From positions 1 through 44,053 of the forward strand of contig NBIV01000390.1 in NCBI GenBank assembly GCA_003194525.1: a stretch of 44,053 nt of DNA, written 5' to 3'. A model generated the notes under the pieces. That model was not told the origin of the DNA and did not search any database. It saw nothing but the letters and a program-made list of their open reading frames with translations. Below, one piece after another: positions 11 to 44,053 of this stretch (its first letter is position 1; every line of letters starts with the position of its first letter). Position numbers and translations under genes: made by a program. This stretch comes from Gracilariopsis chorda. Its lineage: Eukaryota; Rhodophyta; Florideophyceae; Gracilariales; Gracilariaceae.

Positions 11-616
11 TGTGGTGAAGCGTAGTGCTCAAATGAAAGGTGCCAACCGGTCGGCCGAGGCTTCAGCGGTTGGTGGGTGTAGTTTCCTAGGAAGCCCGGA
101 CGGAGAATGGGCTCAAGGATCCGAAGCGGTCGGTCAGGAGACGTCGGGCGAGGGCGGTGGAACCGGACGGACAACTGCGCCAGGCGTGGTCAGTGTGCAC
201 GTTGGGTGTTGGCGGTCGTGTACCACTAGTGGTGACCGGTCGGACTAGCTGCGCTACCTAGTGCGCCGTCTGTATCGCGAACTAGAAGTAGGTGCTCGTA
301 GACTTGGTCAAGAAACGTCTGGCTTTACTCGAAAAGGGGTAGTGACCGTAGTGGTACCTATATACTAGCCCAGGCCCTAGTGGCTCACCTCGAGGGCACT
401 GTAATGGGCCTCGAGGTGCAGGCCCGTCGGCCGCACATGGGTCACTAATACTACCCTAGCTAGAAATACTAAAAATTAGTGTACCGCACGGAAAATCTCG
501 GTACGCGTTCTGATCATGTGCACAAGCACGCACGTGTACAACCTGTCCGATTCCCGGTCCGTCATCCGCTCGGTTACTCGCATTCCCCACCTTACCCGCA
601 CGTCCGCTATTCCACA
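11..616 (-). repeat. 3' LTR of element 1
   Basis: 606 bp, near identical to 10287-10894. Ends are TGTGG...CCACA, a 5-bp terminal inverted repeat with canonical TG/CA termini. It lacks two bases (CG) present in the other copy near 200. No ORF of note. It should supply the polyadenylation signal for the sense transcript, but I did not identify a clear one. Confidence 0.95.
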
Positions 617-629: not shown

Positions 630-1411
630 AGTCGCGCCACGTCCTCGTGGCGCGCCCATGTCCGGTCGGTCGCGATGGCGAGGTAAGTGCAATTCGGTCA
701 GATGGTACGCCTTCGTCGACCGTTCGGTTGAATGCCGAAATCCATTGGCGAGTGGCGCGCCATCAGACCGAATAGCGGGACGCCCCGCCCTTTCCATCAG
801 GCGGTTCGCGCCGCCTTCTCCCAATAGCGGAATGCACCGCACATTTCAGGGGGTAGCATCGCCGTGTAAGGAATAGCACAGCATGCCCAGGCGCCGAGCC
901 ACGCGCGATAGGCGCGGGCGTACCGAAGTGGCCTGCCCAGGCCGGGGATAGAATATGTCAGTTTCTCCCGAACGGTCTTGGTCTTGAGGCCTTTGGCCGG
1001 TTGCGAGGTGGGCGAAGATCGGAGAGCGGTCGGGTTCCAGGGCGGGCGTCGTGTTCCCGTCGGTATGAGCCATTACCTTCCAAGCGGTTGCGACGGCGAA
1101 GTGTTCCGACAGTCCCAACGTCCACTTACTGCTCGGCGTGGACAGAGGTACCAAGGGTACGTGGCGGCTGGAGGGGGACGGTGTATACCGTAGCCAAGGG
1201 GGCGTCCTGGTACACGTCCTATGAGGGTCGCGAGGTGGCATGGGCGGGGCTGCATTAACCCGGTTATTGTCCGTACGGCGTTTATAACCGCGCCGTGGCG
1301 GTCGTTGCCTGGGTATGCATTCGCTCGCCGTCCGTTCGGGTATCCTTCTTCCTCCTTTTGGTGAGTTCCTCCCTAGCGCCTCCCCAGCTTCTCCCGCTAC
1401 TTATACCCGCC
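630..1411 (+). promoter_or_regulatory. Leader/promoter region between 3' LTR and antisense gene of element 1
   Basis: About 780 bp without a convincing ORF on either strand. It lies upstream of the plus-strand antisense gene and downstream of pol on the sense strand. It contains a TATA-like TTTATAA at 1281-1287, 125 bp before the ATG at 1412, and CCGNNCGG octamers at 662, 720, 968, 1271 and 1332. Most likely it holds the promoter and 5' UTR of the antisense gene; this is inferred from position only. Confidence 0.5.
1281..1287 (+). promoter_or_regulatory. TATA-like box for antisense gene of element 1
   Basis: TTTATAA lies 125 bp upstream of the start codon at 1412. Element 2 has TATAAATA 105 bp upstream of its antisense gene, so spacing and type agree between two diverged elements. 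No transcript data. Confidence 0.45.
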
Positions 1412-3346
1412 ATGGTTCCTTCCCCAGTCACCACCAACTCCAAACCAACAGCGTGCGCACCTCCCCTTGCCCTGCCATCAGCCATGCCTCCCCCTACTGA
1501 TCCTTATGCGCGTGCGGCTGGTCCGTCTTCGGGTAATATGCCCGTTGTTGCGCGCACGCTTCCTGTTCCCGGTCAGCATCTCGACCATCGGGCTCAGCGC
1601 GATTACCGTCCAAATCGTCAGGACCGCGAGCCTCCGCTGTCCGTGCTGGAGTATCAGCGCCTCGCGACGCAATATCTCGACGCTGTTCGGTTTGGTCGGA
1701 TTCCATCCGTCCGGACCAATGCGGAGCTAAGCGTTCGTAATCTGAAGCGGACTGACGAAGAAGCTTGGAGGGCTCGTTGGGCACATCTGCCAATCCCGCG
1801 CGGTGTTTACCCTGCTCGGACTTTCGGGCGATGCGATATGCCGTTTGTCCGTTGCCCGGAGGAAGTGGACTATCAGTCGCGTCTCCAGCGTCTGTTGAAG
1901 CGGATGCAGGATGACCCCTACTTTCCGGCGTCGGGGCGCCACAACCTGTTGGAGCTCATTATGTTTGAGCCCCCTTTTGACGAACTGTACTGGCTGCGTC
2001 GCTCCCTCTGGGGTGACAGCGCTGCGACGGAAGCCCGTATTCGGTCATCGCTGAGGTACTTCTACTGCTGGCACAATGTCGAGTTCCATGACCTGGCACC
2101 TAGCGACCGAATCGGTGTGTACATGCCTATCCCGACGGGCTGGAAGGACTACGATGTAAGTCGCAACCTGTCGATCCCGACTCCTCCGATATTGGTGTAT
2201 CACACCACCGAGGTGTTGAATTCTGGACCGTTTTCGGATCGCGCCTTCCAGATAGTATACGCGGAGTGGGCGCTGTTCTCTTTCATGGCCTTCCTTCAGA
2301 CTGCGATTAACGGCGTGTTCGTATACACCTGTGACCGGGATGCTCGGTTACACGAGATGGATGAAGGCCCACATTATGGCCGTCTGCTACCACTGCCGCT
2401 CGGGCTTGTGGACTTGATCCGCGGCATGGGGTTACAGAACATCCTGCGTGGCTCTCGGATCCCTACGGCCGGTGCGGAGCGTGCGTTGCGTCTGTCGGTG
2501 GAAACCGACTGGTCCAGTACCCCGTGCTTTCTGTGGTATGACTTCTTCACTGGGGAGCTCCCCACCATGCCCGCGAGCGGGAACAGTGGGCCCATTTCCC
2601 GGCAGGAGCTTCCGGCCGGTCGTTGCCCCGAGTGGAAGGAGGTTACCGTCAGCAACTACTTCCCGAGCGGTTATCTGGGGTCAGACTTCCGTGCTGCCCC
2701 CAAGCCGATTTCACGCGGCCCGGTGGCCATTGGCCAGGCACCTCCTCCGACATCGGTTCCTGTTGCTCCGCTGGGTTCCACCGGCTTCCGTTCGGTTCCT
2801 TATCCGACGACACCGTCCGTGCCCGCTCCAATCCGTCAGCGGGTGGAGAGGGGCTCGCAGACCGATGAGCCGTGGCTCACGCCCGCCATTGAAGAGGCTT
2901 TCGATGCCCTATGCACTGTGTGCGAGAGCTTCGGGGAGAGTAAGCCCGAATCGGTTGAAGCTGCTCTCCTGTCTGCCCGTACTTGGATTCGTTGCGTTCA
3001 CACCGGCGGTCAGATGATGAGGCGGACTGCTGAGGAGCAGATGCGTCTCCTGGAGAGTATCCGCGTCCACTCGGTTCGGTCGTTGGAACTGTATGGCCAC
3101 CTCCTTATGGAAGCTGAAGCTTACGATCCCGAAATGGCCTCGAACAATCCGGCCACGTTGGCCGTTGCTGTTGCCCTTGCCCGTCCGGAGGGTACTGCGG
3201 GTCCTCCTACGGGAGAAGCTCCCACGTTGGACGATTTGACCTTGCGGATGGAGGGTGAGCGTATCGCTTCCCAGGCCATCACGGACCTATATAAGGAGTC
3301 CCATGGCGGTCGGGGGCTCCATCCGCTGTCGCGCCCGCGGTGGTGA
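1412..3346 (+). CDS. Antisense gene of element 1, 644-aa protein of unknown function
   Basis: A long open frame on the strand opposite gag-pol, between pol and the 3' LTR. I chose the ATG at 1412 because it lies in a GCCATGG context; the frame is open further upstream but without an ATG. The protein has a Pro-rich N-terminus (~60 residues), a central ~270-residue domain rich in aromatic and charged residues, a Pro-rich linker and an acidic, helical C-terminal part. No catalytic motif, zinc finger or signal peptide is recognisable. The central domain aligns with the protein of the antisense gene at 41274-42985: RYFYCW/RFGFLV, NVEFHDL/NLEVERL, PTGW..YDV.R/PLGW..FEV.R, PP.L.Y and AEWA. Plant Tat-lineage elements and some retroviruses carry antisense genes, but I know of no homologue of this one. 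The C-terminus may be shortened by frameshift (see 3340-3545). Confidence 0.75.
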   Translation: MVPSPVTTNSKPTACAPPLALPSAMPPPTDPYARAAGPSSGNMPVVARTLPVPGQHLDHRAQRDYRPNRQDREPPLSVLEYQRLATQYLDAVRFGRIPSVRTNAELSVRNLKRTDEEAWRARWAHLPIPRGVYPARTFGRCDMPFVRCPEEVDYQSRLQRLLKRMQDDPYFPASGRHNLLELIMFEPPFDELYWLRRSLWGDSAATEARIRSSLRYFYCWHNVEFHDLAPSDRIGVYMPIPTGWKDYDVSRNLSIPTPPILVYHTTEVLNSGPFSDRAFQIVYAEWALFSFMAFLQTAINGVFVYTCDRDARLHEMDEGPHYGRLLPLPLGLVDLIRGMGLQNILRGSRIPTAGAERALRLSVETDWSSTPCFLWYDFFTGELPTMPASGNSGPISRQELPAGRCPEWKEVTVSNYFPSGYLGSDFRAAPKPISRGPVAIGQAPPPTSVPVAPLGSTGFRSVPYPTTPSVPAPIRQRVERGSQTDEPWLTPAIEEAFDALCTVCESFGESKPESVEAALLSARTWIRCVHTGGQMMRRTAEEQMRLLESIRVHSVRSLELYGHLLMEAEAYDPEMASNNPATLAVAVALARPEGTAGPPTGEAPTLDDLTLRMEGERIASQAITDLYKESHGGRGLHPLSRPRW

Positions 3347-3545
3347 GCGAAGTGGTTGACCTTTATGAGGATGAGCCGTTGCCTCAGGCGCCGGCGTCTG
3401 GTCCTCCCAGCGGTCCGCCGAGCGTCGTCGTTTCCGAGCCCGCCACGGTTTGGTCTGACTCGTCGAGGGAGGGAGCTTGCCTCCGATCCCGAGGCGGTCT
3501 GCCCGTGCCCAGACTCCTGGTCGTGGCCGTGGTCGCGGTCGTTAG
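3340..3545 (+). pseudogene. Possible frameshifted C-terminal tail of the antisense protein
   Basis: Directly after the stop at 3346, the +2 register continues with coding-like sequence: an acidic stretch (EVVDLYEDEPLP), then Pro/Gly-rich sequence. A further shift near 3470 leads into a short frame ending in GRGRGRGR and a TAG at 3543-3545. An RG-repeat tail is typical of nucleic-acid-binding proteins. Two 1-bp lesions would explain the arrangement, in keeping with the decay of gag-pol in this element. This is inference; the element 2 protein does not show the same tail. Confidence 0.3.
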
Positions 3546-3868: not shown

Positions 3869-6800
3869 TCACGGGGTTGGTGTACGAGGTGCAGGTTGTC
3901 GGCGTGAAGGGCGGCGACGACGCCAGTAATGTGCAACGAAGTGTTGTGGGATATTACCGGCGGGCTCGAGCGTATCATCCTCGGGTGGGTACCCGAACCA
4001 CCGGACTCGGTACCTCATCCCGTTTTTGGTTTCCTCATGTCCGACTATTCGGTCTACGACCGCTTCACGTGGTCGTTCGTCGGACGAGGTCGAAGGGGAG
4101 ACCGTTTGGTGGGCGTAGGGGCCCGTTGGGTCTGTTTCCGGTGGGGCTGTCGTCTGGGGTTGCGCCGATCGGGAGGAGTCCGTGCGGGTGGTGCGCCGTG
4201 GCGCCCGAGTGATACGGTCGATGCTGACGCAGTTTTCAACGCCGTCTTCGTCGATGACGACGGTATCCTCCGTGGCGGTTACGACGCGGAACGGTCCCGT
4301 CGTTTTCGGAAGCAATTTCCGGTAGTTGCGGTTGTATTCGTCGACGTCCGCCTGTGGGGCTGTCGGCATCCATTCCGGTCGGTCCACGTAAACCTCGTCA
4401 CCTGGCTTGAACCGGGGGAGAGTCCGTACGGATCTGTCAAAGTCCAGCTTATACTGGCGCTGGGCCTGAGTCGTCCGTGTCCGTGCGGATGCTAAAGCGT
4501 CCCGAAGGCGGGCCAGGATGTATCGCTTCACCTGCGCGGGTGATGCGGTGTCCGGACCGTCATCGGGGACCGTCGTGGGTGACGTCTCCACCTGTACGCC
4601 GGGCGGATGCCGCGTTAGCACGGGATCAAACGGGGTGGTACCCGTAGTGCGGTGGACCTGCATATTGTATGCATAGGTCAGCGGCTGCACGTACTCGTGC
4701 CATGCGGTCTGGTGCTCGGCCACGTAGTGGCGGAGGCGCTCCACGAGGGTCTTGTTAAACCGTTCGGCCTGCCCATTAGTTTGGGGGTGATAGGCCGTAG
4801 CGGTTATATGTTTGACGCCAAGCATACTGCACACCGCTTCGAAGAACTTCGAGACGAATTGGGTTCCGTTATCGGTTAGTACATATAGCGGGATCCCGTA
4901 CGGGTAGACCCAGTTCTCCAGGAAAGCCTGGGCTACGGCAGACGCCGTAGTTGACTTCAATGGGATCGCGCGGCAGAACTTAGTGAACCGATCGGTTATT
5001 ACCAAGACATATTGGTGACCCTTGGCGCACTTCGTAAATGGGCCGAGAATGTCCATCGCGACGAATTCCAGTGGACCCGCACCTGGGAAAAGCTTCAGAA
5101 GCTTATGATGTCGCTCGCGACTCCCTCAAGTGGAGACGCATGTGCGACAATCCCGTACGGTTTGGAAAATGTCGTTGGCCATCTCGGGCCAATAGTAGTG
5201 CCGCCGGAGGGTGTTATACATCTTTGTAGCACCCGGATGACCGGCATACCTGGGGTAATGGGACAAGTACAGAAGTCTCGCTTGCAGATTCTCCGGTACG
5301 TACCATTGGAGGGCCCCATCGAGCGGTGCCTTCCTTACCAATATCCCGTTTCGGTTCACGTCAAAGAGACTTTTCCCGTCTCCTACTTTCTCCCGTGCGG
5401 ACAGGGAGAGGGGGTCCTTCGCCTGCTCCTGCAGGAACTCTTCCACCGATATCGGACTGACGTCCTCCATTTCGGTGTTCACCTCGAGCACCGTGGGTAG
5501 CCCCAGTCCAACTGGTCCTTCCCACGGCCAATCAACTATGACGGTCTCTTCTATACCGTAATAACAAACCGTGGTCACTGTTGGCGTTTCTTCCGCTTCG
5601 GGCTCGCTTCCAAGTAACAGACACGGGACCTCGTCCTCCAGTGCTTCTGTATCCTCACCGTCCGTACGGATCCTGGAAAGGGCGTCGGCTGCTTGGTGTT
5701 TTACTCCCGGGCGGTGTACGACGTCAAAGTCGTACTCCATGAGGCGGAGTCCCCACCTTGCTAACCGTCCGGACGCATCGGCTAAATTGAGGATCCACCT
5801 CAATCAGTGATGGTCCGTTCGGAGAGTGAAACGCGTGCCTTCCAGGTACGGTCGCAGATGCAAGATGGCCCAGACTACGGCCAAGCATTCCCGTTCGGTT
5901 GTTGAGTATTTCCGTTCGGTTTTGCTTAATGACCGACTCCAGTAACCGATCGGTCGCAGATCACCTTCAGGTTGCTCCTGGAGGAGACAGCATCCGACCT
6001 GGGTGTTACAAGCGTCTGTGTCCAGGACGTACTTGTATCCGTTTCGGGGGAGGGCCAGGATTGGCGGGCGTATGAGACGTTGGCGCAGATCGTCAAACGC
6101 CTCATATTCCGCATCGGTCAGTGTCTCAAACTCGAAGGGCTGGTCTTTCTCCAGTTTCCGATTGAGCGGGCTGGCGATGCGAGCAAATCCCTCTACAAAG
6201 CGACGGAACACGTTGCATAGGCCAAAGAACGAGCGGAGTTCCGTCTGGTTGGTAGGGGGTTTCGCCTGCCGCAAAGCATCGCAAGCTTTGCCAGACACTT
6301 GTAGCCTGCCTGGACGGATCACATGGCCGAGATAGTCGACCGCCTGATGGAATAAGAAGCACTTCTCCAGGCGTAGAGTGATGCCAGCCGAACGAAGGAG
6401 TTCCAGTACGGTCTGTACATGCCCAAAATGCTCTTGGACCGATCGGGAGTATATTATGACATCGTCTAGATATACTAGCGCGAATTGCCACTTGACCCGT
6501 GAGAGGATGATGTCCAGCGCCCTCTGAAACATAGCAGGTGCGTTTTTGAGACCGAACGGCATTCGAACATAACGGAACAATCCCATGTGGGAGGTGAATG
6601 TCGTTTTATCCCGATCGGACTCATCTACCTCGCACTGCCAATAACCGCTATTGGCATCTAGCGTGGTAAACACCACTGCATCGCCCAGTGAGTCAATGCA
6701 CTCATCCATTCTGGGTATCGGATAAGTATCCCGTACGGTCATTGCGTTGAGGCGACGGTAGTCCACGCAAAAGCGTAGAGTGCCGTTCTTCTTTGGTGCA

Positions 6801-8077
6801 AATACGACCGGACTGGCCCATTCTGCGGACGACGGTTCTATCACACCCGCACGGAGTTGCTTCGTGACCTCTTCCCTTTCCAGGTCACGTCTCTTCTGTC
6901 CCGCTCGCTAAGGCATCTGGAAGATTGGCTTAGAGTCATCTTCCAGATGGATGCAGTGTTTGGCAATTGAGATTGCTCCCAAGTGTCCATCCCACATATC
7001 CGAGAATGGTTGCAGAAACTCGGTGATTCGTTCCCGTTCGGACTCATATTCATCGCCGATGCGGACTTTCTGCTTCCATCCGTCCTGGTCCACCACTTCG
7101 GTCTGTAGTTCCTGTCCGTTCTGGTTGTCGTTTTGGAGTGTTGGGGCCCCCTCCTTAGATTCGTCGTCCCCGCCGAATGGAGACGGTGAAATTAAGGCAA
7201 CCGGTGTGGGCATGGCAAGACCGACTATGGTGTTCTTGGCCAGATGTATCGGGCTGTTCCCAAAGTTGGAAACTAGGACCCGGAAGGACCGTTTCGGGAT
7301 AAGTTCCATGACGCCGTTGGCCATGAGCATGAGGCGCTTCTTTACCGTCTTTGGGTTCAGTTGGAGGAACGAAAGTCCTCCAACGTCAGCGGTAACCTGC
7401 ACCTCCGCTTGGGTCATTGGCGGTATATTAACCGCTCGGGCGACACGAATCTTATTCGATGTCGAGTTGTCCGTCGTGGGAAGCGATTCCTGTACGATCA
7501 TACTTTGGGTGCGCATAGACGCGCTCAGGAGTGCGACCGGTCGGGAGTGGTGAAAAGCAACCTGTTTCCGTTGTGGATAGATAGCCGTCACGTGCTTGTC
7601 GATAAAAGTAGTACCGAGCAAGCACGGGGTGGCCAGGTTTGTTGAGACTAAGAAGTGGTCCCACACACCAAGGTTACCGATTCGGATAAAAAGGCGGATG
7701 ACACCCAAAGTCCGCATACGGTTACGAGACGCATCCGTAATGTTCGGGTGGTCTCGAGTAAGCAGTTTCGATTGCCATCCGGGCGGAAGCGAATTCACAT
7801 GGACCAAGTTGGGCCCGGCGCCGGTGTCAAGGACACCAGTGACGGGTATCTGGACTTGGGAATCCAGACCGACCGAGAAAAAGACTTTGTAATGCGCTCG
7901 ATTAAAGAGCATTACCGGGTCGGTTTGCATGTTCCCAGGGTTGAGATCTTCGTCCGTATGGGTTGCTTCCGTGGGATCGTGCGGTTCCGAATCGGGTTCT
8001 TCATAAGACCGCGCGGTTTCCATGGTGAGGCTTTGTTGCCTCGGGGGGTGGCTCGCCTCTATGCACCCTCCGGGTAG
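3869..8077 (-). pseudogene. pol of element 1: protease-RT-RNase H-integrase-chromodomain, three in-frame stops
   Basis: One continuous register of about 1400 codons interrupted only by TAG (6908-6910), TGA (5804-5806) and TGA (5126-5128). Order: aspartic protease (LDTGAGPNLV, flap-like LGTTF), reverse transcriptase (VDYRRLN, FTTLDANSGYW, MPFGLKNAP, catalytic VYLDDVI), RNase H (DTDA, ERECLAV, TDH), integrase HHCC zinc domain (HYPRYAGH...CRTC), DDE core (MDILG, TDNGTQF, NGQAERF) and C-terminal chromodomain (VVDRIVG, YRVRWFGYPPEDD). The stops fall before the RT, inside RNase H, and between the zinc domain and the integrase core. The first ATG is at 8023, but the register is open back through the gag stop in the -1 frame, so entry by frameshift near 8077-8083 is likely. 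The usual chromodomain DTWEP is DTLEP here (CTC codon). Confidence 0.92.
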
Positions 8078-10250
8078 TTTTCCAGAGCGGGTGGTGAATC
8101 GGCGTCCACCAGGTGGACCGGTGGGTTTGTCTGTTCCGAGCGGTGAGGGGGGTCCGTTTGGGCTTGCGGAAAGCCCTGGCGGGGCCCTTGGTATCTCCGC
8201 CCGGGTCCGTTGTTGGTTGCAGTGCCGTGCGAGTTTCGAGGGAAATTATAGAACCCCTCCTCCTTACGGCGGTTGAAGTTCACTTCCCGTGCGGCCAGTA
8301 AAGCCGCACGAACGCCCGGCGGTAGCATCTGGCAACAGTCCGGATCCCGGGACAGACAGATCCGGCACGGCTTGTCCATTAATCGTGCGGATGTGGGGGC
8401 CGCTCCCCGTGGAGGGGCGGTGAACTGGACCGCTCGGGACGAGTGCGACGTGGTGGTGGTGGGTGTCGTCGGAGGGGATGGCAAGGTGTTGCCATTCCCA
8501 ACTGCGAACACTTGTCCATCACCAAGCGCGGACTCGTATTCGTCCGAGTCGGTGTCCAAACTCATCACCTTCGAGCGTGTGCCCTTCCGATGAGTTGGCA
8601 GAGAATCCGTGCGGGTCGCCTGCCGTCTGGCGGCACGGTGCGTGTTGCCATACGATTCCGCATATCGGGCGAGGGCATTCAGGCCGATGTGCGGGTGACT
8701 TGTCAGATGAGTTCTGACCTTGGACCGTATAGCGGGCAGCAAGTTCTCCACAAAGACGGACTTCAAACGTCTGTCCGAGAACACGTTTCCGCAACGGAGG
8801 GCTTTGTCCCAGAGCTTCTGAGCGAATTCCGTTTCGGACATGCCCGACGACTGGCAGTAGTTTGTCACATCCGCGTATGCGTCTGCGATAACCTCGTTGG
8901 TTGCATACGTGGTCAACAGGAAGTTGACACTTCGGAGTATGTCCGTAAGGTTTCCCGGCTTCGGACGTCCACAGCGTTCGTCTCCCCCGTGATACGGGAG
9001 TGTACCAGCGAGTGGGCCGATCCGGTCAGATAGAACTGGAAGCACCAGAGAGCTGCGCCCTCTGTGATCCCGTTGTGGTCACATGCGGTCTTGAACAGCT
9101 GTAAGAAGCCCAGTACGGCGATAGGGTCCGATCCGGAGAACGGGTTACCCTTAAGCTGAATATCCAGCTTCTTGTGGTAGCGGCCAATATATCTGGCCAC
9201 TTTGGAGTCTTACCGAGCGGACTTCTTCAATAGGCGGTAGGACCCGTAGTCTACCGCCTTTTTGAACAGGTCATTCAACGGCCTGAGTCGCTTGAGCGAC
9301 CTCTTGCCCGAACGGTACCGCAAATCACGCGAGTCATCACTCGCCTCTGAGTCCGACTGGTTGAACTCTTCTTCTGACTCTGTAAAGTCCGAGCGGTCCG
9401 TGTCTGAGTCCGAACGGTCTCTAAGTTTCCCACGGCGGGACCTTTTCTTCCCGCCGCGTTTCTTGTGGCCCGAGTTCGGAGACTTCCCCCGACGGTCGCG
9501 CTTGTAGCGAACTGAGCTCCCATCCTCGGAGCTACTGTCGTCGGGATCTGCACCCGGTCCTGGTTGACTGGGGATGGCCGGCAGGTATACCATTCGGGGA
9601 GCATCTCGATCGCTCCCGTCTGGTATTCCTGTACCGGTCTGTGGGTCTGGTGCGAAGCCCGTAGGGTTTGAAACGTACTTTGGGAGTGCCTGGGGATCTT
9701 GTGGGTCCCCGGGAAGCGGCGCTTGTGCCCGACCAGATGGAACGCCCACGAGGTTGACGCTTGGCTTCAAGCGTGTCACGACCTCCCTAGTAACCGTGCG
9801 GACGATATCAGACTCCTGCTGCTCCAAAATCTGAGGTATCCGATCAGCCAGATATTCTTCGACCGCCACGGGTACTCGAATCTCGAGTTCCGTGCGGACG
9901 AATACAGAAATGTGTGTCCATATACGGTCCCACAAGTCATCGGATCCATCATTTCCGATCGTTCTTGATCGCGAAGGAACGCCCGTTCCTGGTGGTTGGG
10001 CTGGTGCCTGAGGTGCTGGCTGTCCGTGCGGTACCGAGGGAGCTGACGCGCCTCGGCTGGCGCGCAGCAAGGCCTCGGGGTTTTCCGTGGCGGGTTGTAG
10101 GAGTGCTGACGCACTCCGGGTGCTTCGGTTTGTAACCAAAGCGGTGTCTGAAGCCGCCGCCGATGCGGCTTGAGACTCCGTAGCGGGCTTGGCTTGTTTG
10201 TGGCCCTCAGAGCCCTTCTGACTGGGAGGTTTCGGTAGCCTGGATTCCAT
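8059..10250 (-). pseudogene. gag of element 1 (nonsense plus frameshift)
   Basis: I chose the ATG at 10250 as the first in-frame ATG, 37 nt inside the 5' LTR border; the frame runs further up without an ATG. The N-terminal ~270 residues are low complexity (Ala/Pro/Ser, then KR- and DS-rich), as in many structural Gag proteins. The conserved gag core begins near 9230 and aligns with element 2 (FSGSDPIAVLGFL versus FSGEDPILVLDFL; LRCGNVFSDRR versus HRCGNVFTAFE). An in-frame TAA at 9210-9212 interrupts just before the core, and a one-base shift at about 8955-8990 moves the remainder to another frame. The knuckle region (CRICLSRDPDCC) lacks the His of the CCHC knuckle that element 2 retains. No functional Gag can come from this copy without recoding. 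Confidence 0.88.
8077..8083 (-). other. Candidate -1 frameshift site, element 1 gag/pol
   Basis: Minus-strand GGAAAAC in gag register G GAA AAC, 15 nt before the gag TAG (8059-8061). A one-base backward slip joins gag to the pol register at the codon CTA. A short ACCC-GGA-GGGT hairpin follows directly. The heptamer is not canonical in its first half. Element 2 has GAAAAAC at the equivalent place, with the same AAAACTA core. Confidence 0.4.
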
Positions 10251-10267
10251 TTCGGCCCGTATTGGTT

Positions 10268-10285
10268 TTCTAGGTCGGGAGACCA
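10268..10285 (-). promoter_or_regulatory. Primer binding site of element 1
   Basis: Minus-strand TGGTCTCCCGACCTAGAA starts one base after the 5' LTR. The same 18 nt occur two bases after the LTR of element 2 (33537-33554). The complementary tRNA end would be ...TCGGGAG-A-CCA, that is C1:G72 with A73, the eukaryotic tRNA-Tyr identity pair. The initiator-Met primer common in plant and fungal elements would read differently. Confidence 0.8.
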
Positions 10286-10286
10286 A

Positions 10287-10894
10287 TGTGGGGAAGCGTA
10301 GTGCTTAAATGAAAGGTGCCAACTGGTCGGCCGAGGCTTCAGAGGTTGGTGGGTGTAGTTTCCTAGGAAGCCCGGACGGAGAATGGGCTCAAGGATCCGA
10401 AGCGGTCGGTCAGGAGACGTCGGGCGAGGGCGGTGGAACCGGACGGACAACTGCGCCAGGCGTGGTCAGTGTGCACGCGTTGGGTGTTGGCGGTCGTGTA
10501 CCACTAGTGGTGACCGGTCGGACTAGCTGCGCTACCTAGTGCGCCGTCTGTATCGCGAACTAGAAGTAGGTGCTCGTAGACTTGGTCAAGAAACGTCTGG
10601 CTTTACTCGAAAAGGGGTAATGACCGTAGTGGTACCTATATACTAGCCCAGGCCCTAGTGGCTCACCTGGAGGGCACTGTAATGGGCCTCAAGGTGCAGG
10701 CCCGTCGGCCGCACATGGGTCACTAATACTACCCTAGCTAGAAATACTAAAAATTAGTGTACCGCACGGAAAATCTCGGTACGCGTTCTGATCATGTGCA
10801 CAAGCACGCACGTGTAAAACCTGTCCGATTCCCGGTCCGTCATCCGCTCGGTTACTCGCATTCCCCACCTTACCCGCACGTCCGCTATTCCACA
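10287..10894 (-). repeat. 5' LTR of element 1
   Basis: 608 bp, TGTGG...CCACA, about 98.7% identical to 11-616. It should contain the sense promoter for gag-pol. The octamer CCGNNCGG occurs several times in each LTR copy (in the left copy at 47, 96, 163, 236 and 484). Confidence 0.95.
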
Positions 10895-32619: not shown

Positions 32620-33534
32620 TGTAGTGCAATACATTCCCGCGTACGGGCGATGGTGAAACTCATATCTGAGGTGTACTCGGTGCGAGCGATGAAGCGGGAT
32701 GCATGAATTTTAGCCCCCGTTTACCGGGCTAATTAGCGGTCGGGTTACCCAGGGTGGTTATGGGAACATTCATATTTTGTGGTACTTGCCTGCCAAGGGT
32801 GGTGGACACGTGGCTACAGCCCCAGCCAGGAGGCCCAAAATGGCTACTTATTTTAGTGTAGTTTAGGGGTTAATTTTACTTAGGCTAGTGCACTACCTAC
32901 TGTACTGCACTGAGCTAGTACTTGAGCGTCGGCCACACGACGGCGAGCTCACCAAGAAAAGAAAAAGGAGAGTTCGGCTCTGACTCTATTCGCCATGCGA
33001 AGTGTCTAACTCCTCGCGGAGGTACACCGCTTGCCCGGTAGTTTCACCCGACTCGCACCACCGAGGAGACCATGCTCGTCGTACCCAGTGGGTTGTGACC
33101 ACTCGTGGTATTCATTGTTGTCGTGTGACCGCCCGTACAGGCCCTATCTCCGCCCCAGTTTTGGGTATTGATATTACCGACGTGTGTCGTGAGACCGTGA
33201 GACCATCTCTTCCCCTCATATCCCCTAACCGCCGCGCGGTGCGTGTTCGTGTGTGTGTATCGGCACCCCCCTCCGGGGTCTGTCCCCGCTTTCCGCACGC
33301 CCCCGTCGGGTGGTCCCTTTCCCTCTTTTGTTCCCCTGCTCGCAGGCTACTTCCGTACCAGCCGTGGTTCCGACCCGTTCTAAGCCCTAAACCTCCGAGG
33401 TACATCCAGGCTCCCGACGGAGTTACACCCGTCATACGGGACACGGAGGGCTCTACTCAGCTGGGCCTACCTCTCCAAGAGAGCAAGGCTTCGAGCTGCC
33501 TTGGGTGCCTTTCCCACACCGGGATTGCACCACA
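32620..33534 (+). repeat. 5' LTR of element 2
   Basis: 915 bp, TGTAGTG...CCACA. The first ~893 bp match 43161-44053. The end is set by the CACA just before the PBS at 33537. It includes an AT-rich half (32700-32900), with sense transcription start expected somewhere after it. Confidence 0.92.
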
Positions 33535-33536: not shown

Positions 33537-33554
33537 TGGTCTCCCGACCTAGAA
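33537..33554 (+). promoter_or_regulatory. Primer binding site of element 2
   Basis: TGGTCTCCCGACCTAGAA, two bases after the LTR. Identical over 18 nt to the PBS of element 1 although the LTRs are unrelated, so both use the same primer tRNA (C1:G72, A73; tRNA-Tyr type by inference). Confidence 0.85.
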
Positions 33555-33683: not shown

Positions 33684-35726
33684 ATGCTGCCCACAGCTCC
33701 GAGTTCCCCCAGGAATGGTCCGCAACGGAACGCCGAAGCGGCGAGATCACGAAGGTCCGTTCCGGAACAACTACTTACCGATGCCGTCGGTGTGGAATCC
33801 CAAGGAATCCCATCGGCAACCTCGGTGCCTCGAGCCGTGACAGCTGTGGCCACTACGCCACCTCCGGTGGTCGAAATGCCGTCGGCTGTCCCCCCGAGAC
33901 CCGGGTCGCCTAAGTACCATCTCCTCGAGTCGAGAATCGACATTGCCAATGTGGCCCACGCCTCCCTCTCGCAGCAAGTTACCGATTTGGAACGGCGATG
34001 GAGTGACTCCCTGGCTCGGGATTATTCGGGAGATATTCGTCTCCTGAGAGCTGATGTGAATTCCATTCTGGAGTGTCTGGGTACTCCGGCTGCCTTCGTA
34101 GAAGGATATCGGGAGTTCGTGGAGGAAGTTAAAACCCATATGATGCGGGTAACCGGACGTATGGACACGCTGGAAGCGTTGCTCAGAGAAGACCTGAACG
34201 CTCCGAGACAGGAGGAAGTGAAGGTCATCTCACCCCAACACCGCTCCAGTCACCTCCCCCGTCACCCTGGAAAGAGAGTTCATCGTTATGAAGTCTCGCC
34301 AAGTTCCGACTCGGAAACAAGTTCGAGTAGCTCGTCTTCGAGATCATCGCGTGAAGGGAGAGGCCGCCGTCGCGGAGAAGAACCTAGTTCGAGGGCTACC
34401 TACACCTCCCATGGAGCAATCCGTGCGCGGGAGAAAGGTCGCCGTCATTTCGGCTTGAAGGAATTGAAACCGACGAATCCCCTTTACAGGAAGCTGTTGT
34501 CCTATCGTTATTACCGATTGGAAGACTCTTCGGGCACTCGAAGTTCGAGAGACACCGGTCGGGTGAAGGATCTCATACGTCGTATGAATGTGACGATGCT
34601 TAAGCAGAAGTTCTCCGGTGAAGATCCGATCCTCGTGTTGGATTTTCTGGCCCGCTTTGTGCAGGAAGCAGACGTACTCGAAATGAGTGAGGCGCAGGCA
34701 TACGTTGCGTTGCCCTACTTTCTTTCAGGAATAGCTGAAGATCAGTACAACTCGGTCAGGGGTTCGTCCAGGGCCTCAGAAGGAGGTGTTACGTGCTGGC
34801 CCGAGGCTGTACACTACCTGCTCAGGTCGTACGCGACGGGAACTGCAATCAGTCAAGCCATCGTGGCGATTCGCGATACGAAACAGAAGCCTGGTGAAAC
34901 GGAAACGTCGTATTCAACTCGCTTGAATAAAGCGTTTCATCGTTGTGGAAATGTGTTTACCGCTTTTGAGCGTTGCTCCATGCTGGTGGATGGTTTAGAT
35001 CCTGGTATCAGGGCACTGGTGTCCCGCTACAGGGAAGAGAAGCGCAAGGCGACGTATCTGGAACTGGTCCAGTACGCGCAGGCTGAGGGTGACACCCTCA
35101 GAGCGAGAGACCCGAGGCGTCGGTCGTCGAAGGCTCTCTTCGTCGAGAACGAGGCTTCCTCGGCATCTCTCCCTAACCCGGGACCACCTTCCAGATTTGC
35201 GGATAACATCCAGTATCTTGGCAGTCTTGAACAGTCGTTGGCAACCTCGGAACTGCCGTCCACGGTTACACCCACCGTGGTAGATCCGGCCTTTTACGCA
35301 AACCACGGTCGGGTTCTCCCAGCCCCGCTAGCCTACGCGTCGAGCGCCACAAGACACTCCCGCCCGGGATGGTCCAACCCGAAGCAACTAGCATTCCAAC
35401 CACAACACCCTCAGCACCGCGGAATGATGTCCCACGCCACCGGAACACGTTCAGCCCCGCTGATTTGCTACATTTGTTACCTTGAAGGTCATACTGCTTC
35501 GCAGTGTACCCTCCCCATTCGCGAGATGTGGAAGATCGTGGGAAATTATGAGAATCTCCCACCGGAGCATAAGGCTCGTGTCCCGAGTAATTCGTATGAA
35601 GACGCAAAGGCTGCGGTCCACAATGCTCAAGCTCGAGAAGCCGCGAAAACCGCGAACGGTAACAACCCTAACCTTTCGGAACGGGCTCAGCCGCACCCAG
35701 CGGTCGATTCGGTCCCGAAAAACTAA
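33684..35726 (+). CDS. Gag of element 2, 680 aa, intact
   Basis: ATG at 33684, 149 nt after the LTR. Order: Pro/Thr/Val-rich N-terminus; helical, possibly coiled segment around residues 80-170 (LESRIDIANVAHASLSQQV); Ser run and RGRRRGEE basic region near 215-235; retrotransposon gag core about 300-480 (FSGEDPILVLDFLARF, ETSYSTRLNKAFHRCGNVF); CCHC zinc knuckle CYICYLEGHTASQC near 593-606; hydrophilic end. This is the capsid/nucleocapsid protein that packages the RNA. It overlaps the pol register, which is open in the -1 frame from 35600; the stop is at 35724-35726, one codon after an A-run. Confidence 0.93.
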   Translation: MLPTAPSSPRNGPQRNAEAARSRRSVPEQLLTDAVGVESQGIPSATSVPRAVTAVATTPPPVVEMPSAVPPRPGSPKYHLLESRIDIANVAHASLSQQVTDLERRWSDSLARDYSGDIRLLRADVNSILECLGTPAAFVEGYREFVEEVKTHMMRVTGRMDTLEALLREDLNAPRQEEVKVISPQHRSSHLPRHPGKRVHRYEVSPSSDSETSSSSSSSRSSREGRGRRRGEEPSSRATYTSHGAIRAREKGRRHFGLKELKPTNPLYRKLLSYRYYRLEDSSGTRSSRDTGRVKDLIRRMNVTMLKQKFSGEDPILVLDFLARFVQEADVLEMSEAQAYVALPYFLSGIAEDQYNSVRGSSRASEGGVTCWPEAVHYLLRSYATGTAISQAIVAIRDTKQKPGETETSYSTRLNKAFHRCGNVFTAFERCSMLVDGLDPGIRALVSRYREEKRKATYLELVQYAQAEGDTLRARDPRRRSSKALFVENEASSASLPNPGPPSRFADNIQYLGSLEQSLATSELPSTVTPTVVDPAFYANHGRVLPAPLAYASSATRHSRPGWSNPKQLAFQPQHPQHRGMMSHATGTRSAPLICYICYLEGHTASQCTLPIREMWKIVGNYENLPPEHKARVPSNSYEDAKAAVHNAQAREAAKTANGNNPNLSERAQPHPAVDSVPKN

Positions 35727-35741
35727 TCTTGGGAGTCTCCC
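35717..35741 (+). other. Candidate -1 frameshift signal, element 2 gag/pol
   Basis: GAAAAAC (35717-35723) ends exactly at the gag stop TAA. Slipping back one base enters the pol register with CTA. GGGA-GTC-TCCC (35731-35741) forms a hairpin after a 7-nt spacer; an alternative CTCCC/GGGAG stem overlaps it. The first base G departs from the classic AAAAAAC heptamer. Confidence 0.5.
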
Positions 35742-38700
35742 CCACGGGAGGGGTGTCTTCCAAGCCGAAGTTGAAGACGCCTGAGGCGCCACCGCTTCGC
35801 TCCCCTGCCAAAATCCTTACGAGGAAACTGGCTCAAGAAGACGTGAGCTCGGACCACTTAGTGGCTCTGCGTCGTCCGTGGATACGGTCCCGTAACCTCC
35901 GCATCCCGGATCGAGTTTTGGTAATGGCCAAGAGGAACTATAAAGTTTATAGTGACCTCGGTCTCTCTAACCAGTTCATGGTTCGTCAGTTATCTGTCCT
36001 GGATACAGGTGCCGCTCCGAACCTGATCAATATCGGGATTATTCCACCCGCCATGCGGAAATGCATTCGCATTGGTCCAAGTCTGGATCTGGCGGACGCT
36101 AATAACAACCCGCTCCAGACTCTTGGAACAATTCCTCTGGTACTCAGACTAGGCACCTACGTGGTGAAGTTGGACTTCATCGTATGCGATTCTCTTGCTG
36201 CACCGGTCATCCTCGGTTGTGATTTCTGTGACCGCTTCGTGGAAGCTATCCGCCCTCGCTCCAGATCCGTGGAATTGGCCAACGGTTCGACCATCCCGAT
36301 TGTACGGAAGCCCTTGCGACACGCCTCCCGTAAACGGGTACCTTTACCTGCTGCTCAGGAAGCGTCCAATGTGGATCGAGCATCTACGAAGATTAGCGTC
36401 GCGGAACCAGTTTCGATCCCGAAGGAATCTCAGGTGTGGGTTTCAGTAACATCCAAACACCACGGGTTGCAGGTTTTTCAACCGCTCCCCTCGCTCTACG
36501 AACAGCGCCGTCTCGCATTAGCAAATGGGATCGTATCCGTCGAGCCGGACAAACCCTTTAAGGTTCTCGTTGCTAACCTCGGAACTACCACTCAGTGGTT
36601 GGTTAAAAACCAGGTCCTGGGCAACATGCTTCCGCATCCGTTGGCTATCCTTCCTACAAAGATTCCGATATCCGACGTTCTCGGAATACAAGACCCTAAG
36701 GAGGGGGAGGAGGTCCCGTTCGTTCCGTTGGATCCCGCCCGGGAAAGTTCAGATTCGACTGTCGAAGAAGCTCAGAAGAGCACGACTTCAGCATCGGCAG
36801 ATACTGCGTTAGACCCAGAACAGGCTTTGGATAAGTTGGACCTGGATCACATTAATGAATCTCATCGTGAGAAGTTTCGTGACATGCTCAGGGACTTTAC
36901 CGCCATGTGGGACGGTTCCCTGGGGACGATAGGGGTAACCGAACATCGGATTGATTTGTTGCCGGATACACGGCCTATTGCACAGCACCCGTATCGGGCA
37001 GGCCCTAAAGCAAGGGGGGAAGAGAAATCTCAGGTGGAGAAGATGCTGCGAGCTGGAGTTATCGAAGCAGCACAATCCCCTTGGGCTTCTCCTGTTGTCC
37101 TTGTTCCGAAAGCCGATGGATCATGGCGTTTTTGTGTGGATTACCGCCGCCTGAATGCGGTTACTGTCAAGGACGTCTATCCGATTCCACGAATGGACGA
37201 GTACATTGACTCCCTGGGGAGCGCAACGGTGTTCACTACCCTCGATGCCAATTCGGGATACTGGCAGGTCCCTATTAGGAAAGAAGATCGTGATAAGACC
37301 GCGTTTGTGTGCCATCAAGGACTATATCGCTTTAAGCGAATGCCGTTTGGACTAACGAATGCCCCAGCTACATTCCAACGGGCAATCGATATCCTCTTGG
37401 CGAGGTTCAAATGGACCAGCTGTCTGGTATACTTGGACGACATTATAGTGTTCTCCAATAACTTGGACGATCACCTGTCCCATGTCCGGGAAGTCTTGAC
37501 AGTGCTCCGCAACGCGGGCATCACCCTGAAGCTGGGAAAGTGTGAGTTCTGCGCCGATTCGGTAAAATATCTGGGGCACATCATCCGCCCCGGACAGCTT
37601 TCAATCGATGAAGCAAGAGTGAAATCACTTCGAGAGGCGAAACATCCGACTAATCAAACGGAGCTTCGATCCTTCCTAGGACTTTGCAATGTATATCGCC
37701 GATTCGTCCCGAACTTCGCCGACTTGTCAGCACCGCTTAACGCACTCCTCCGGAAAGGACAACCCACCGAACTGGACGTCTTTGACGAGGCTGAGTCGTC
37801 AGCATTCTCGTCTCTTGTCGACGCTGTAACGTCCCCGCCAGTTCTGGCCTTACCGCACCCGGACTTACCCTTCGAAGTGGATACTGACTCAAGTGCCCAC
37901 CAGGTGGGTTGTGCGTTGTTTCAAGTCACGGAAGAAGGAGAAAGACATCCGATCGGATATTGGTCACGTTCGTTGAACGTTCACGAGCGCAACTACTCGG
38001 TGTCCGAGAAGGAGTGTCTTGCTGTTGTTTGGGCGTTGGCAACGCTTCGCCCATACCTTATGGGTAACCATTTTAAGGTTCACACCGATCACTCGGCTCT
38101 CCGTTGGCTACTCGAAATTCGAGAACCGTCGGGCCGCCTCATGCGTTGGCGTCTCCGACTCTCAGAATTTACATTTGATGTCCTCTACAAGAAGGGATCC
38201 CTGAATACTCAGGCTGACGCCCTATCGCGCTTAGGAACATCAGCGGAAACCGAACCGGTCGACGATCTGGAAATACCATGTTTCATGGCACAATCCCCGG
38301 AGGGAACAGAAGAAGACGACCCAGACGTGAATGGGGATGACATCTGTGACGATATTCTGGCTGCAAACCCTACGGATCCTCCGGATGACCAGGTTGTTCC
38401 CATATCCTCTGAGGAAATGATCCGTGAACAACAGCAGGATCCTTTCTGTGCCCAGATTCGTGCCCGTCTTAACGGGGGCGCACAGATACCCTTTGCGGTG
38501 AACGATCGAGGCTACCTAGTCAGGTTGCTGACACGGGCCCCACAGATCGTTGTACCTCACACGCTGCAGCAGCGCGTCTTGCATCTATCGCATTACGCGA
38601 AGTTGGGTGCACATCCCGGCGGGAGGAAACTATACCTGACCCTTCGCAGGGACTTCTATTGGCCTGCTATGGCATTTGACTGCTGTGCAGTTCGCCGCTC

Positions 38701-40144
38701 GTGCGTGGAATGTGCGAAGAATAATGTGAAACTTCGGAAGTACTCGAAGAAGTTAACACTATTCCCGGCACGGGCGCCACTCGAATATGTCGCTATTGAT
38801 ATCTTGGGCGAGCTTTTCAAAACCAAACGTGGTTACAAGTATCTTCTCGTCATTACTGACCGCTTCTCAAAGTTGGTGAGAACAGTACCGCTTAAACGGA
38901 TTACCGCGGACGTGGTTGCGCGTGCGTTCGTAACCCACTGGGTCTTTACTTACGGCCCGCCGGTACATCTACTCTCCGACAACGGATCTCAATTTACCTC
39001 AAAGTTCTTTCAGGACGTATGTAGAATCTTGGGAATCAAGAATATGTTTACTACCACCTACCACCCGCAGTGTAACGGACAAGTGGAACGATTCAATCGT
39101 ACTATGCTCAACGCACTGCGCGCGTATGTCGCGGATCACCCCATGGAATGGGACTTGTACACGGACGCTATTACGTACGCGTATAACACCCAGGTACACC
39201 GGGTCACGACCCTCGCTCCATTTGAGCTGGTCCTGTCTCGGATTCCGCCACCCATGGCTATTGAAGCGCAACCGAACGTCTCGGGGTACCCTTCACCAAG
39301 GTTATATCGAGATTCCTGGAAGGAATGGTTGAAGAACATGGTCCCTACCGCCCGAAAGGCTATGGGAAAAGCCCAGGAGGCATACAAACAGAACTTCGAC
39401 GCGAAGATTCGTACCCCGATACCCCAGGTCTCGGAAGGGGATTCTGTCTTCCTGCGAAAGGAATATTATAATCCCGAAAAGGAGAAGCGCCACAAGTTGT
39501 CACCGATAGTGAATGGACCCTATCGGGTGGTTTCCGTCGCCGACGACACAGTCGTACTGGACATCGATAACCAGTTCGAACGCGTCTCACGCGACCGCGT
39601 AGCCCACGCGCCTGCGCCCCCTGAGGGCTCATCACCGCTCGTGACAATCCCGGAGGATGACCTCGTAACTCGGCCAACGGATAATCTGCTTCCGTCCCGC
39701 CCACCCGTCTTACCGCACCCGAAACGGGGACTCTCGGATCTTCCGATTGCCGATCAACCGGTTGAGCGCGCCGCGCGTATCGTGAAACGCACGCTTGACC
39801 CCAAACGCCTAACCGTTACTCCGCCCGCGGAGGTCCTTCAGCCTGAACCCACCGCCCTCTCACCTAAGGAGGGGGAGGGACGGGAATCGATCGCGCCATC
39901 GCGGAAGGAAGCTCCGGCGTCGGACGGTGTCCCGTTTCATACGGCATCGTCGGATAAGCACCCCCGGAGCAGGGAGGAGTTGAACGCATCGCGAAGCGAG
40001 AAGGCCGTCTCCGCGGACCCGGATGCACTCCTGTCGAGCGAGTCGCTGGGTAGCGAAGGAGGAAGTAGTGAACCGGACTCGGTGTGGTCACTAATGTGGC
40101 GAATGATATCTCCGAGCACGGAGCACATACAACCTCGGTCATAA
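35723..40144 (+). CDS. Pol of element 2: protease-RT-RNase H-integrase, intact
   Basis: About 1473 codons without interruption. No ATG begins this register, supporting expression as Gag-Pol by -1 frameshift. Protease LDTGAAPNLI with ILGCDF flap-side block; reverse transcriptase VDYRRLN, FTTLDANSGYW, MPFGLTNAP, VYLDDII; RNase H VDTDSSAHQVG, EKECLAVVW, HTDHSALRW; integrase HHCC zinc domain (HYAKLGAHPGG...CVECAK), then IDILGE, SDNGSQF and NGQVERFNR (D, D, E). After the GPYRVV SH3-like part of integrase comes a ~170-residue disordered Pro/Ser/Glu tail with no chromodomain; the chromodomain is in a separate ORF 450 nt downstream. All catalytic residues are present, so this copy may be active. Confidence 0.95.
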   Translation, partial: LILGVSPTGGVSSKPKLKTPEAPPLRSPAKILTRKLAQEDVSSDHLVALRRPWIRSRNLRIPDRVLVMAKRNYKVYSDLGLSNQFMVRQLSVLDTGAAPNLINIGIIPPAMRKCIRIGPSLDLADANNNPLQTLGTIPLVLRLGTYVVKLDFIVCDSLAAPVILGCDFCDRFVEAIRPRSRSVELANGSTIPIVRKPLRHASRKRVPLPAAQEASNVDRASTKISVAEPVSIPKESQVWVSVTSKHHGLQVFQPLPSLYEQRRLALANGIVSVEPDKPFKVLVANLGTTTQWLVKNQVLGNMLPHPLAILPTKIPISDVLGIQDPKEGEEVPFVPLDPARESSDSTVEEAQKSTTSASADTALDPEQALDKLDLDHINESHREKFRDMLRDFTAMWDGSLGTIGVTEHRIDLLPDTRPIAQHPYRAGPKARGEEKSQVEKMLRAGVIEAAQSPWASPVVLVPKADGSWRFCVDYRRLNAVTVKDVYPIPRMDEYIDSLGSATVFTTLDANSGYWQVPIRKEDRDKTAFVCHQGLYRFKRMPFGLTNAPATFQRAIDILLARFKWTSCLVYLDDIIVFSNNLDDHLSHVREVLTVLRNAGITLKLGKCEFCADSVKYLGHIIRPGQLSIDEARVKSLREAKHPTNQTELRSFLGLCNVYRRFVPNFADLSAPLNALLRKGQPTELDVFDEAESSAFSSLVDAVTSPPVLALPHPDLPFEVDTDSSAHQVGCALFQVTEEGERHPIGYWSRSLNVHERNYSVSEKECLAVVWALATLRPYLMGNHFKVHTDHSALRWLLEIREPSGRLMRWRLRLSEFTFDVLYKKGSLNTQADALSRLGTSAETEPVDDLEIPCFMAQSPEGTEEDDPDVNGDDICDDILAANPTDPPDDQVVPISSEEMIREQQQDPFCAQIRARLNGGAQIPFAVNDRGYLVRLLTRAPQIVVPHTLQQRVLHLSHYAKLGAHPGGRKLYLTLRRDFYWPAMAFDCCAVRRSCVECAKNNVKLRKYSKKLTLFPARAPLEYVAIDILGELFKTKRGYKYLLVITDRFSKLVRTVPLKRITADVVARAFVTHWVFTYGPPVHLLSDNGSQFTSKFFQDVCRILGIKNMFTTTYHPQCNGQVERFNRTMLNALRAYVADHPMEWDLYTDAITYAYNTQVHRVTTLAPFELVLSRIPPPMAIEAQPNVSGYPSPRLYRDSWKEWLKNMVPTARKAMGKAQEAYKQNFDAKIRTPIPQVSEGDSVFLRKEYYNPEKEKRHKLSPIVNGPYRVVSVADDTVVLDIDNQFERVSRDRVAHAPAPPEGSSPLVTIPEDDLVTRPTDNLLPSRPPVLPHPKRGLSDLPIADQPVERAARIVKRTLDPKRLTVTPPAEVLQPEPTALSPKEGEGRESIAPSRKEAPASDGVPFHTASSDKHPRSREELNASRSEKAVSADPDALLSSESLGSEGGSSEPDSVWSLMWRMISPSTEHIQPRS

Positions 40145-40592: not shown

Positions 40593-40937
40593 ATGCGGTA
40601 TCAAGTCCCAGCACTCGCAGCGTCGAGGAAAGCTGACTTTGCCCGCAGGGTCGCGCCAATTTCAGGCAAGTCCCCTCACAGGGTTCTCCCCTTAAGCCCT
40701 GCCATGACGTGTCAGGAGCCGGCTACGTACGACAAGGAGTTTGTCGTTGACCACATCGTGGATCATGTTCTGGACTCCAAAGGAGTGTGGTTTTACCAAA
40801 TCCGATGGTACGGATACCCCCCGGAAGAGGACACATGGGAGCCCATTCAGCACCTTCCTCGTTCCAAGGTGATAACCTACCACCGCCGGACGCGGTTCCC
40901 ACTCCCATCCACTTTGGACATGGCCCAGGTTGGGTAG
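40593..40937 (+). CDS. Stand-alone chromodomain protein of element 2, 114 aa
   Basis: ATG at 40593, in a different frame from pol. Residues ~45-100 form a chromodomain: EFVVDHIVDHVLDSKGVWFYQIRWYGYP, EEDTWEP and HLPRS, with the aromatic-cage tryptophan in DTWEP. In chromoviruses this module is fused to integrase and directs insertion to methyl-histone chromatin; element 1 has it fused. Here it is separated by 450 nt and a C17 tract. It may be joined by splicing, made by reinitiation, or be the product of a frameshift history in this copy. Confidence 0.75.
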   Translation: MRYQVPALAASRKADFARRVAPISGKSPHRVLPLSPAMTCQEPATYDKEFVVDHIVDHVLDSKGVWFYQIRWYGYPPEEDTWEPIQHLPRSKVITYHRRTRFPLPSTLDMAQVG

Positions 40938-43089: not shown

Positions 43090-43097
43090 TATTTATA
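43090..43097 (-). promoter_or_regulatory. TATA box for antisense gene of element 2
   Basis: TATAAATA on the minus strand, 105 bp upstream of the ATG at 42985, between PPT and gene. This is a consensus match, and its position parallels the TTTATAA before the element 1 antisense gene. Confidence 0.6.
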
Positions 43098-43160: not shown

Positions 43161-44053
43161 TGTAGTGCAATACATTCCCGCGTACGGGCGATGGTGAAAC
43201 TCATATCTGAGGTGTACTCGGTGCGAGCGATGAAGCGGATGCATGAATTTTAGCCCCCGTTTACCGGGCTAATTAGCGGTCGGGTTACCCAGGGTGGTTT
43301 TGGGAACATTCATATTTTGTGGTACTTGCCTGGCAAGGGTGGTGGACACGTGGCTACAGCCCAGCCAGGAGGCCCAAAACGGCTACTTATTTTAGTATAG
43401 TTTAGGGGTTAATTTTACTTAGGCTAGTGCACTACCTACTGTACTGCACTGAGCTAGTACTTGAGCGTCGGCCGCACGGCGGCGAGCTCACCAAGAAAAA
43501 GTAACAAGAGTTCGGCTCTGACTCTATTCGCCATGCGAAGTGTCTAACTCCTCGCGGAGGTACAACCGCTTGCCCGATAGTTTTCACCCGACTCGCACCA
43601 CCGAGGAGACCGTGCTCGTCGTACCCAGTGGGTTGTGACCACTCGTGGTATTCGTTGTTTGTCGTGTGACCGCCCGTACAGGCCCTATCTCCGCCCAGTT
43701 TTGGGTATTGATATTACCGACGTGTGTCGTGAGACCGTGAGACCATCCCTTTCCCCTCATATCCCCTAACCGCCGCGCGGTGCGTGTTCGTGTGTGTGTA
43801 TCGGCACCCCCCTCCGGGGTCTGTTCCCGCTTTCCGCACGCCCCCGTCGGGTGGTCCCTTTCCCTCTTTTGTTCCACTGTTCGCAGGCTACTTCCGGACC
43901 AGCCGTGGTTCCGACCCGTTCTAACCCCTAAACCTCCGAGGTACATCCAGGCTCCCGACGGAGTTACACCCGTCATACGGGACACGGAGGGCTCTACCCA
44001 GCTGGGCCTACCTCTCCAAGAGAGCAAGGCTTCGAGCTGCCTTGGGTGCCTTT
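43161..44053 (+). repeat. 3' LTR of element 2, partial at window end
   Basis: 893 bp matching 32620-33512 at about 97%. By comparison with the 5' copy about 22 bp are missing beyond the window. A further target duplication (CTTAG expected) would lie outside. Confidence 0.95.

Follow-up and report, generated by a model that had tools for sequence, protein, structure and literature searches.

Human T-lymphotropic virus 1 (HTLV-1) has an antisense gene. Antisense open reading frames (ORFs) situated between pol and the 3′ long terminal repeat (LTR), termed aORF-3R, are known from Grande, RIRE2, Retand, PvRetro13 and Boty, and antisense accessory genes of Gypsy elements have been described in plants and fungi, with their function undetermined (PMC7264820). 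The product of Grande GENE23 is nuclear and its gene is driven by its own promoter, and an SMC domain was reported for the antisense protein of PvRetro13 (PMC7264820). The TRP28 (PF04195) antisense ORFs of Retand were proposed to encode a nucleic-acid-binding regulator (PMC11963269). Boty of Botrytis possesses the antisense gene brtn (PMC7264820, PMC8365987), and the antisense promoter of HTLV is located within the 3′ LTR (PMC7264820). Algal DNA transposons also harbour accessory genes, one of them opposite to the transposase (PMC12477816). Here we report on two Gypsy elements of the red alga Gracilariopsis chorda, each of which carries a gene antisense to gag-pol. Both elements, named A and B, reside in a single stretch of 44,053 nucleotides (the window), which corresponds to contig NBIV01000390.1 (C390) of a 91.3 Mb genome assembly with 1081 contigs.

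According to a first-pass annotation of the window, each element has a gene that runs opposite to pol in the interval separating pol from the 3′ LTR; our analysis confirmed this position and orientation. The gene of element A occupies 1412..3346 on the plus strand and comprises 644 codons from the ATG, or 683 from an upstream GTG. The frame of 570 codons that had been assigned to element B, however, does not exist as such in the window, where the gene is broken into two overlapping frames on the minus strand, an N-terminal part (42029..42985, 318 aa) and a C-terminal part (41274..42065, 263 aa). Genome searches yielded 71 matches to A and 132 matches to the N-terminal part of B, and the 30 best of each (A list and B list, both including the window copy) were fetched as genome loci L009–L068. 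An uninterrupted B ORF of 571 codons was present in 21 of the 30 B-list loci, so that the original length holds for the siblings of the window copy. An MVPS start followed by at least 640 open codons was found in 8 of the 30 A-list loci, and the A gene extends to 711 codons with an Arg/Gly-rich tail in L011–L014. Open antisense frames, which the first-pass annotation had expected elsewhere in the genome, are thus present for both genes. Towards the C terminus, the window A frame parts from the sibling frames, and it ends at 644 aa both in the window and in L009. The remaining five frames of intact A and B genes carry 11–26 stops each. Locus L009, located on contig C2 at 5.8 kb from the contig end, encodes a protein identical to that of the window A copy, the altered C-terminal frame included; it is either a sister copy that arose very recently or an assembly segment that was duplicated.

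One-to-one comparison of intact A and B proteins by BLASTP resulted in a match with an E value of 6e-9 (45.1 bits). Without composition adjustment the score was 48.5 bits, while the best of 1000 shuffles of the B protein reached 30.8. Profile–profile alignment of 8 A/D/E-type sequences (including P0002 and P0003, see below) with 4 B-type sequences covered 150 columns with E 7.7e-9 and a probability of 95.8%. As judged from these alignments, the A and B antisense proteins are homologous. The central-domain similarity recognized by the first reading therefore stood; part of its motif string spans the break between the two B frames. Neither the LTRs nor the antisense DNA of window A and window B gave a blastn match at E ≤ 1, in line with the earlier statement that the LTRs of the two elements are unrelated.

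The subfamilies recognized were A, A′-like, D (824 aa), E (611 aa), B and B′ (537 aa); an extra group with a 738-codon open frame (47–48% to E) was seen in search matches only. Comparison of L011 (A) with 13 A′-like loci (L023, L024, L027, L028 and L030–L038) revealed proportions of synonymous differences (pS) of 0.705–0.774 and of non-synonymous differences (pN) of 0.205–0.327. Changes were distributed over the three codon positions as, for instance, 183/134/368, the third position exceeding the first by a factor of 1.5–2.3. Similarly, B and three B-like relatives exhibited pS of 0.64–0.77 and pN of 0.19–0.34, and the pairs A–D, A–E and D–E showed pS of 0.75–0.79 and pN of 0.45–0.46. Because pS is near saturation while pN is lower between subfamilies, the antisense ORF is, by the pattern of its substitutions, a selected accessory protein and not a chance ORF. 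The proposal that the protein is conserved without the DNA and under selection was thus corroborated, with pN far below pS between subfamilies. The integrase/chromodomain end of window A, compared with six of the same A′-like loci, gave pS of 0.65–0.72 and pN of 0.25–0.32; for A versus these six loci, the antisense protein appears to be constrained to a similar degree as the neighbouring integrase.

The antisense genes are part of a multicopy family. Besides the searches with A and B, own-genome searches returned 82 matches to subfamily E, 81 to B′ (mostly B copies at ~49%), while the searches with two outside relatives gave 149 and 131 matches; the match lists overlap, some loci are split and nothing was deduplicated, and all these counts are to be read as lower bounds. 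A pol end (integrase and/or chromodomain) was located downstream and on the opposite strand in 52 of the 60 loci L009–L068, a set made up of the A and B lists in which two loci are the window itself and L026 and L029 overlap. Five loci (L025, L035, L036, L037 and L041) yielded no pol match whatever, and in three others (L022, L034 and L056) the match concerned another part, place or strand. The same antisense arrangement with pol was observed for subfamily D (L079). A set of 5.8 billion proteins contained three relatives among the ~8000 candidates scored per search, namely P0001 (97% to A), P0002 and P0003. Since no listed own-genome copy is nearer to P0002 and P0003 than 57% and 62%, respectively, this distance suggests that the family is present in another species. 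Many B copies lie in the same orientation near contig starts, which had raised the idea of telomere targeting. This idea was dropped because the gene is situated at the 3′ end of a long repeat, and contigs broken inside the element from the 3′ side would keep the gene in just this orientation.

The genes of A and B share several properties with the aORF-3R genes Grande GENE23, RIRE2 and PvRetro13: position, orientation, occurrence in many copies, the absence of informative relatives, and conservation on par with other element proteins. They differ in the red-algal host and in that nine members had no Pfam match at E ≤ 10, the comparison being one of description, not of sequence. Whereas Grande has its own promoter, TATA-like boxes are what we see here. 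The Retand TRP28 ORFs are likewise antisense and placed between pol and the 3′ LTR (PMC11963269). Homology to TRP28 was looked for, but PF04195 matched neither the proteins (E ≤ 10) nor the genome (E ≤ 1), the genome search having no positive control among its 14 control genomes. In addition, Retand is described as a non-chromovirus (PMC11963269), whereas A and B carry chromodomains, as anticipated by their initial assignment to a red-algal chromodomain Gypsy lineage. Boty brtn resembles our genes in being an additional gene, antisense in orientation, of a Gypsy element from outside plants, again by description and not by sequence. HTLV-1 shares the presence of an antisense gene in a retroelement but differs in promoter position, the TATA-like boxes of A and B being outside the 3′ LTR. 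Among the titles and abstract openings listed for the literature covered, no report of an antisense gene in red-algal LTR elements was found, and with most subscription papers outside this coverage, this is no proof of absence. The family is apparently new and unrelated to those described; by its position it belongs to a class already known, the host group being new. The occurrence in a red alga of an apparently separate antisense family, constrained like integrase in the comparison of A with A′-like loci, points to a repeated origin or persistence of such genes and to a need of the element that they serve. The many near-identical, uninterrupted copies and the diverged subfamilies in one small genome represent a practical study system.

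Candidate promoters were found upstream of both genes. A TATA-like box, TTATAA, is located at 1282..1287 (plus strand), 130 bp upstream of the ATG of antisense gene A, and a TATA box, TATAAATA, at 43090..43097 (minus strand), 112 bp upstream of the ATG of gene B. Within 150 bp above the ATG, TTATAA was present in all 14 A-list loci that have an MVPS start, and TATAAATA in 27 of the 28 B-list loci that have an MTNT start (30 loci fetched in each case); A′-like loci, whose start codons were not located, are excluded from these counts. Transcription probably proceeds from a TATA site between the ATG and the 3′ LTR. In B, the 175 bp that separate the ATG from the LTR must hold the promoter, unless it extends into the LTR.

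The proteins consist of a conserved central region with Pro-rich flanks, the overall length varying from ~537 to 824 aa across subfamilies. The central region is predicted to be helical in low-confidence AlphaFold models. RG-rich tails are found in A and D, and a KRAR sequence is present near the end of E. Maximum hydropathy over 19 residues was 1.58 for A, 1.29 for B, 1.71 for D, 1.45 for E and 1.23 for B′. The usual cut-off for a membrane segment is 1.6. No clear membrane segment was thus evident by hydropathy, D being borderline. A Ser/Thr-Gln-Thr-Asp motif (SQTD or TQTD) precedes the C-terminal region at residue 482 in L011 (A) and residue 515 in L070 (D). Those proteins of B, B′ and E that were examined lack the motif, so that its likeness to a dynein light chain ligand was left unused.

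We favour the reading that the antisense ORF is an accessory gene whose product has a nuclear or ribonucleoprotein (RNP) regulatory role, and assign to this reading as a whole a probability of roughly 0.6. That the ORF is a protein-coding accessory gene appears very probable, whereas the nuclear or RNP-bound regulatory role, by analogy the most likely function, is put forward tentatively. On this reading, a lineage of chromodomain-bearing Gypsy elements in a red alga possesses the ORF as a genuine accessory gene, whose mRNA would be transcribed from its own TATA promoter. With lower confidence, the product may be a nuclear or RNP-bound nucleic-acid-binding protein that aids or regulates the element. 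Possible modes include nuclear entry, chromatin targeting and relief of silencing, and the nuclear product of Grande GENE23 may be compared; the C terminus would be consistent with such a role in some subfamilies, where it is Arg/Gly-rich or resembles a nuclear localization signal.

Several observations weigh against this interpretation. Constraint was weaker within families: ratios of non-synonymous to synonymous substitution rates (dN/dS) were 0.22–0.62 for A copies versus L011, with L029 at 1.21, and 0–0.99 for B copies versus L047, where changes are few, apart from 1.39 for L040 and 3.47 for L042. Pairs of A′-like loci gave 0.40–0.78 (0.19–0.29 for pairs with L037), and pN/pS amounted to 0.7–0.8 for E copies and 1.0 for D–D2. 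A dN/dS near 1, which the first-pass annotation had regarded as a sign against selection, is therefore not seen between subfamilies, but is approached within them, as in the window B copy with 0.97 versus L047 over 286 codons. For A versus B, 89 codons near saturation gave pN of 0.56 and pS of 0.69; because both kinds of site are near saturation, this pair demonstrates homology, not selection. In our reading, the weaker within-family constraint reflects copies that drifted once inserted, and selection operates on those lineages that went on to spread. Furthermore, the TATA counts come from close relatives and amount to about two independent observations, and the basic tail is absent from B and B′. 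No Pfam match to the antisense proteins was obtained at E ≤ 1, nor at E ≤ 10 over the nine members, and the sequence search of the PDB returned nothing convincing, its sole match being a ribosome-biogenesis protein at E 0.041. Structure prediction of the central domain, recommended by the first reading, did not help: the two AlphaFold models were poor, with a mean predicted local distance difference test (pLDDT) score of 38.2 and 42.7, Foldseek found no match to either at E ≤ 0.001, and no conclusion was drawn from the models.

Other explanations deserve consideration. It has been suggested for antisense units that the transcript itself could act (PMC7264820), and since our gene overlies the genomic RNA of the element in its 3′ part, RNA pairing or silencing by double-stranded RNA is conceivable, the ORF being incidental. 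The amino-acid constraint on a single frame, whose synonymous sites are near saturation, speaks against this view, as do the five closed frames; moreover, an RNA-only role would not be expected to keep the protein while DNA similarity vanishes. Based on codon constraint and the closed frames, we set aside RNA-only function as the sole explanation and consider it highly improbable. The same position of the gene in A, A′-like, B and D elements, the divergence that parallels integrase for A/A′, and the mere three relatives among the candidates scored per protein search render it very unlikely that a host gene was captured or a nested element inserted antisense by chance, even though antisense orientation together with a TATA box of its own gives the gene the look of an independent unit; an old capture is conceivable. 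An envelope-like protein could be invoked for subfamily D, whose hydropathy maximum slightly exceeds 1.6; given the orientation antisense to gag-pol and the maxima of 1.2–1.6 in A, B, E and B′, this scarcely credible reading was set aside as well.

Two further functions may be considered. The helical central region of the low-confidence models, the Pro-rich ends and the RG-rich tail of A and D would fit a structural or RNP protein that accompanies the packaged element RNA, either as a second Gag-like protein or in association with the nucleocapsid. We regard this as unlikely: a gag-like ORF already exists on the sense strand and no gag domain was matched, while the models are too poor to judge. 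An anti-silencing factor that shields the element from RNA- or chromatin-based repression by the host would agree with the apparent promoter outside the LTR and with retention of the gene in many recently multiplied copies. No domain or interaction supports this role, which seems similarly improbable. The accessory gene with a nuclear or RNP regulatory product remains our preferred reading. A more far-reaching version of it, which we consider doubtful, holds that the elements encode an ancient superfamily of antisense proteins, which selection has retained despite divergence to ~30% identity; the chromodomain Gypsy elements of red algae would require them as obligatory trans-acting factors, whose expression does not depend on the LTR and which control host chromatin or silencing, and they would have originated independently of the antisense regulators in plants, fungi and deltaretroviruses.

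Element A (11–10894, gag-pol on the minus strand) was delimited by its LTR pair and a flanking repeat. Its 3′ LTR (11..616, minus strand) and 5′ LTR (10287..10894, minus strand) form a direct repeat with 98.4% identity over 608 columns. Element A looks like a complete insertion because GAAAT directly flanks both borders (6–10 and 10895–10899) and the LTRs are paired. Its gag region (8059..10286, minus strand) comprises two ORFs and was assigned by position alone, with no Pfam gag match. Protease-like, reverse transcriptase, RNase H and integrase zinc-binding regions follow at 5126..8023 (minus strand), distributed over several ORFs in this copy; the protease-like match (E 0.022) was under the cut-off. 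The end of pol at 3869..5056 (minus strand) contains the integrase core and the chromodomain in the same ORF (Pfam rve, 4.4e-15; Chromo, 3.9e-10) and is arranged tail-to-tail with the antisense gene.

Element B carries gag-pol on the plus strand and, as defined by its LTR pair, reaches from 32620 to past the contig end. The inner end of its 5′ LTR (32620..33534, plus strand) was inferred from CACA ahead of the primer-binding site; the 3′ LTR (43161..44053, plus strand) is truncated by the contig end, and the pair shares 96.9% identity over 897 columns. A gag-like ORF (33684..35726, plus strand) contains a zinc-knuckle-like sequence, CYICYLEGHTASQC, recognized by eye, with no Pfam match, and is followed by pol with reverse transcriptase, RNase H and integrase matches in Pfam (35729..40144, plus strand). 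The chromodomain (40704..40937, plus strand; Chromo, 1.8e-11) can be placed at the integrase C terminus only with the reservation that it lies in a separate frame downstream of pol. It is located ~560 bases past the pol stop, preceded by a stretch of C residues and the acceptor-like sequence ‘ttgcccgcag’; the chromodomain may be joined to pol by splicing or represent a separate ORF. The pol sequences of A and B exhibit weak similarity. An identical primer-binding-site-like 18-mer is located just inside both 5′ LTRs (10268..10285, minus strand, in A; 33537..33554, plus strand, in B), despite the unrelated LTRs.

The region between the two elements (18716–31401) contains host genes for a TatD-like DNase, an AONS-like aminotransferase, a double AAA ATPase, C2H2 and RING finger proteins and a cytidylyltransferase-like protein. 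The AONS-like protein shares 65% identity with proteins of Agarophyton chilense and Gracilaria domingensis, its best matches with a species name, and two other matches are nearer at 100% and 87%; from this comparison, too, we take the host for a red alga with kinship to Gracilariaceae. A DDE_Tnp_4 transposase remnant, which we take to be of the PIF/Harbinger type, is present at 17200–17673 on the minus strand. Elsewhere in the genome, contigs C883, C573, C998 and C1001 displayed RNase H matches in the same orientation at ~5.68 kb intervals, which suggests that a different Gypsy element of shorter length is arrayed there head-to-tail.
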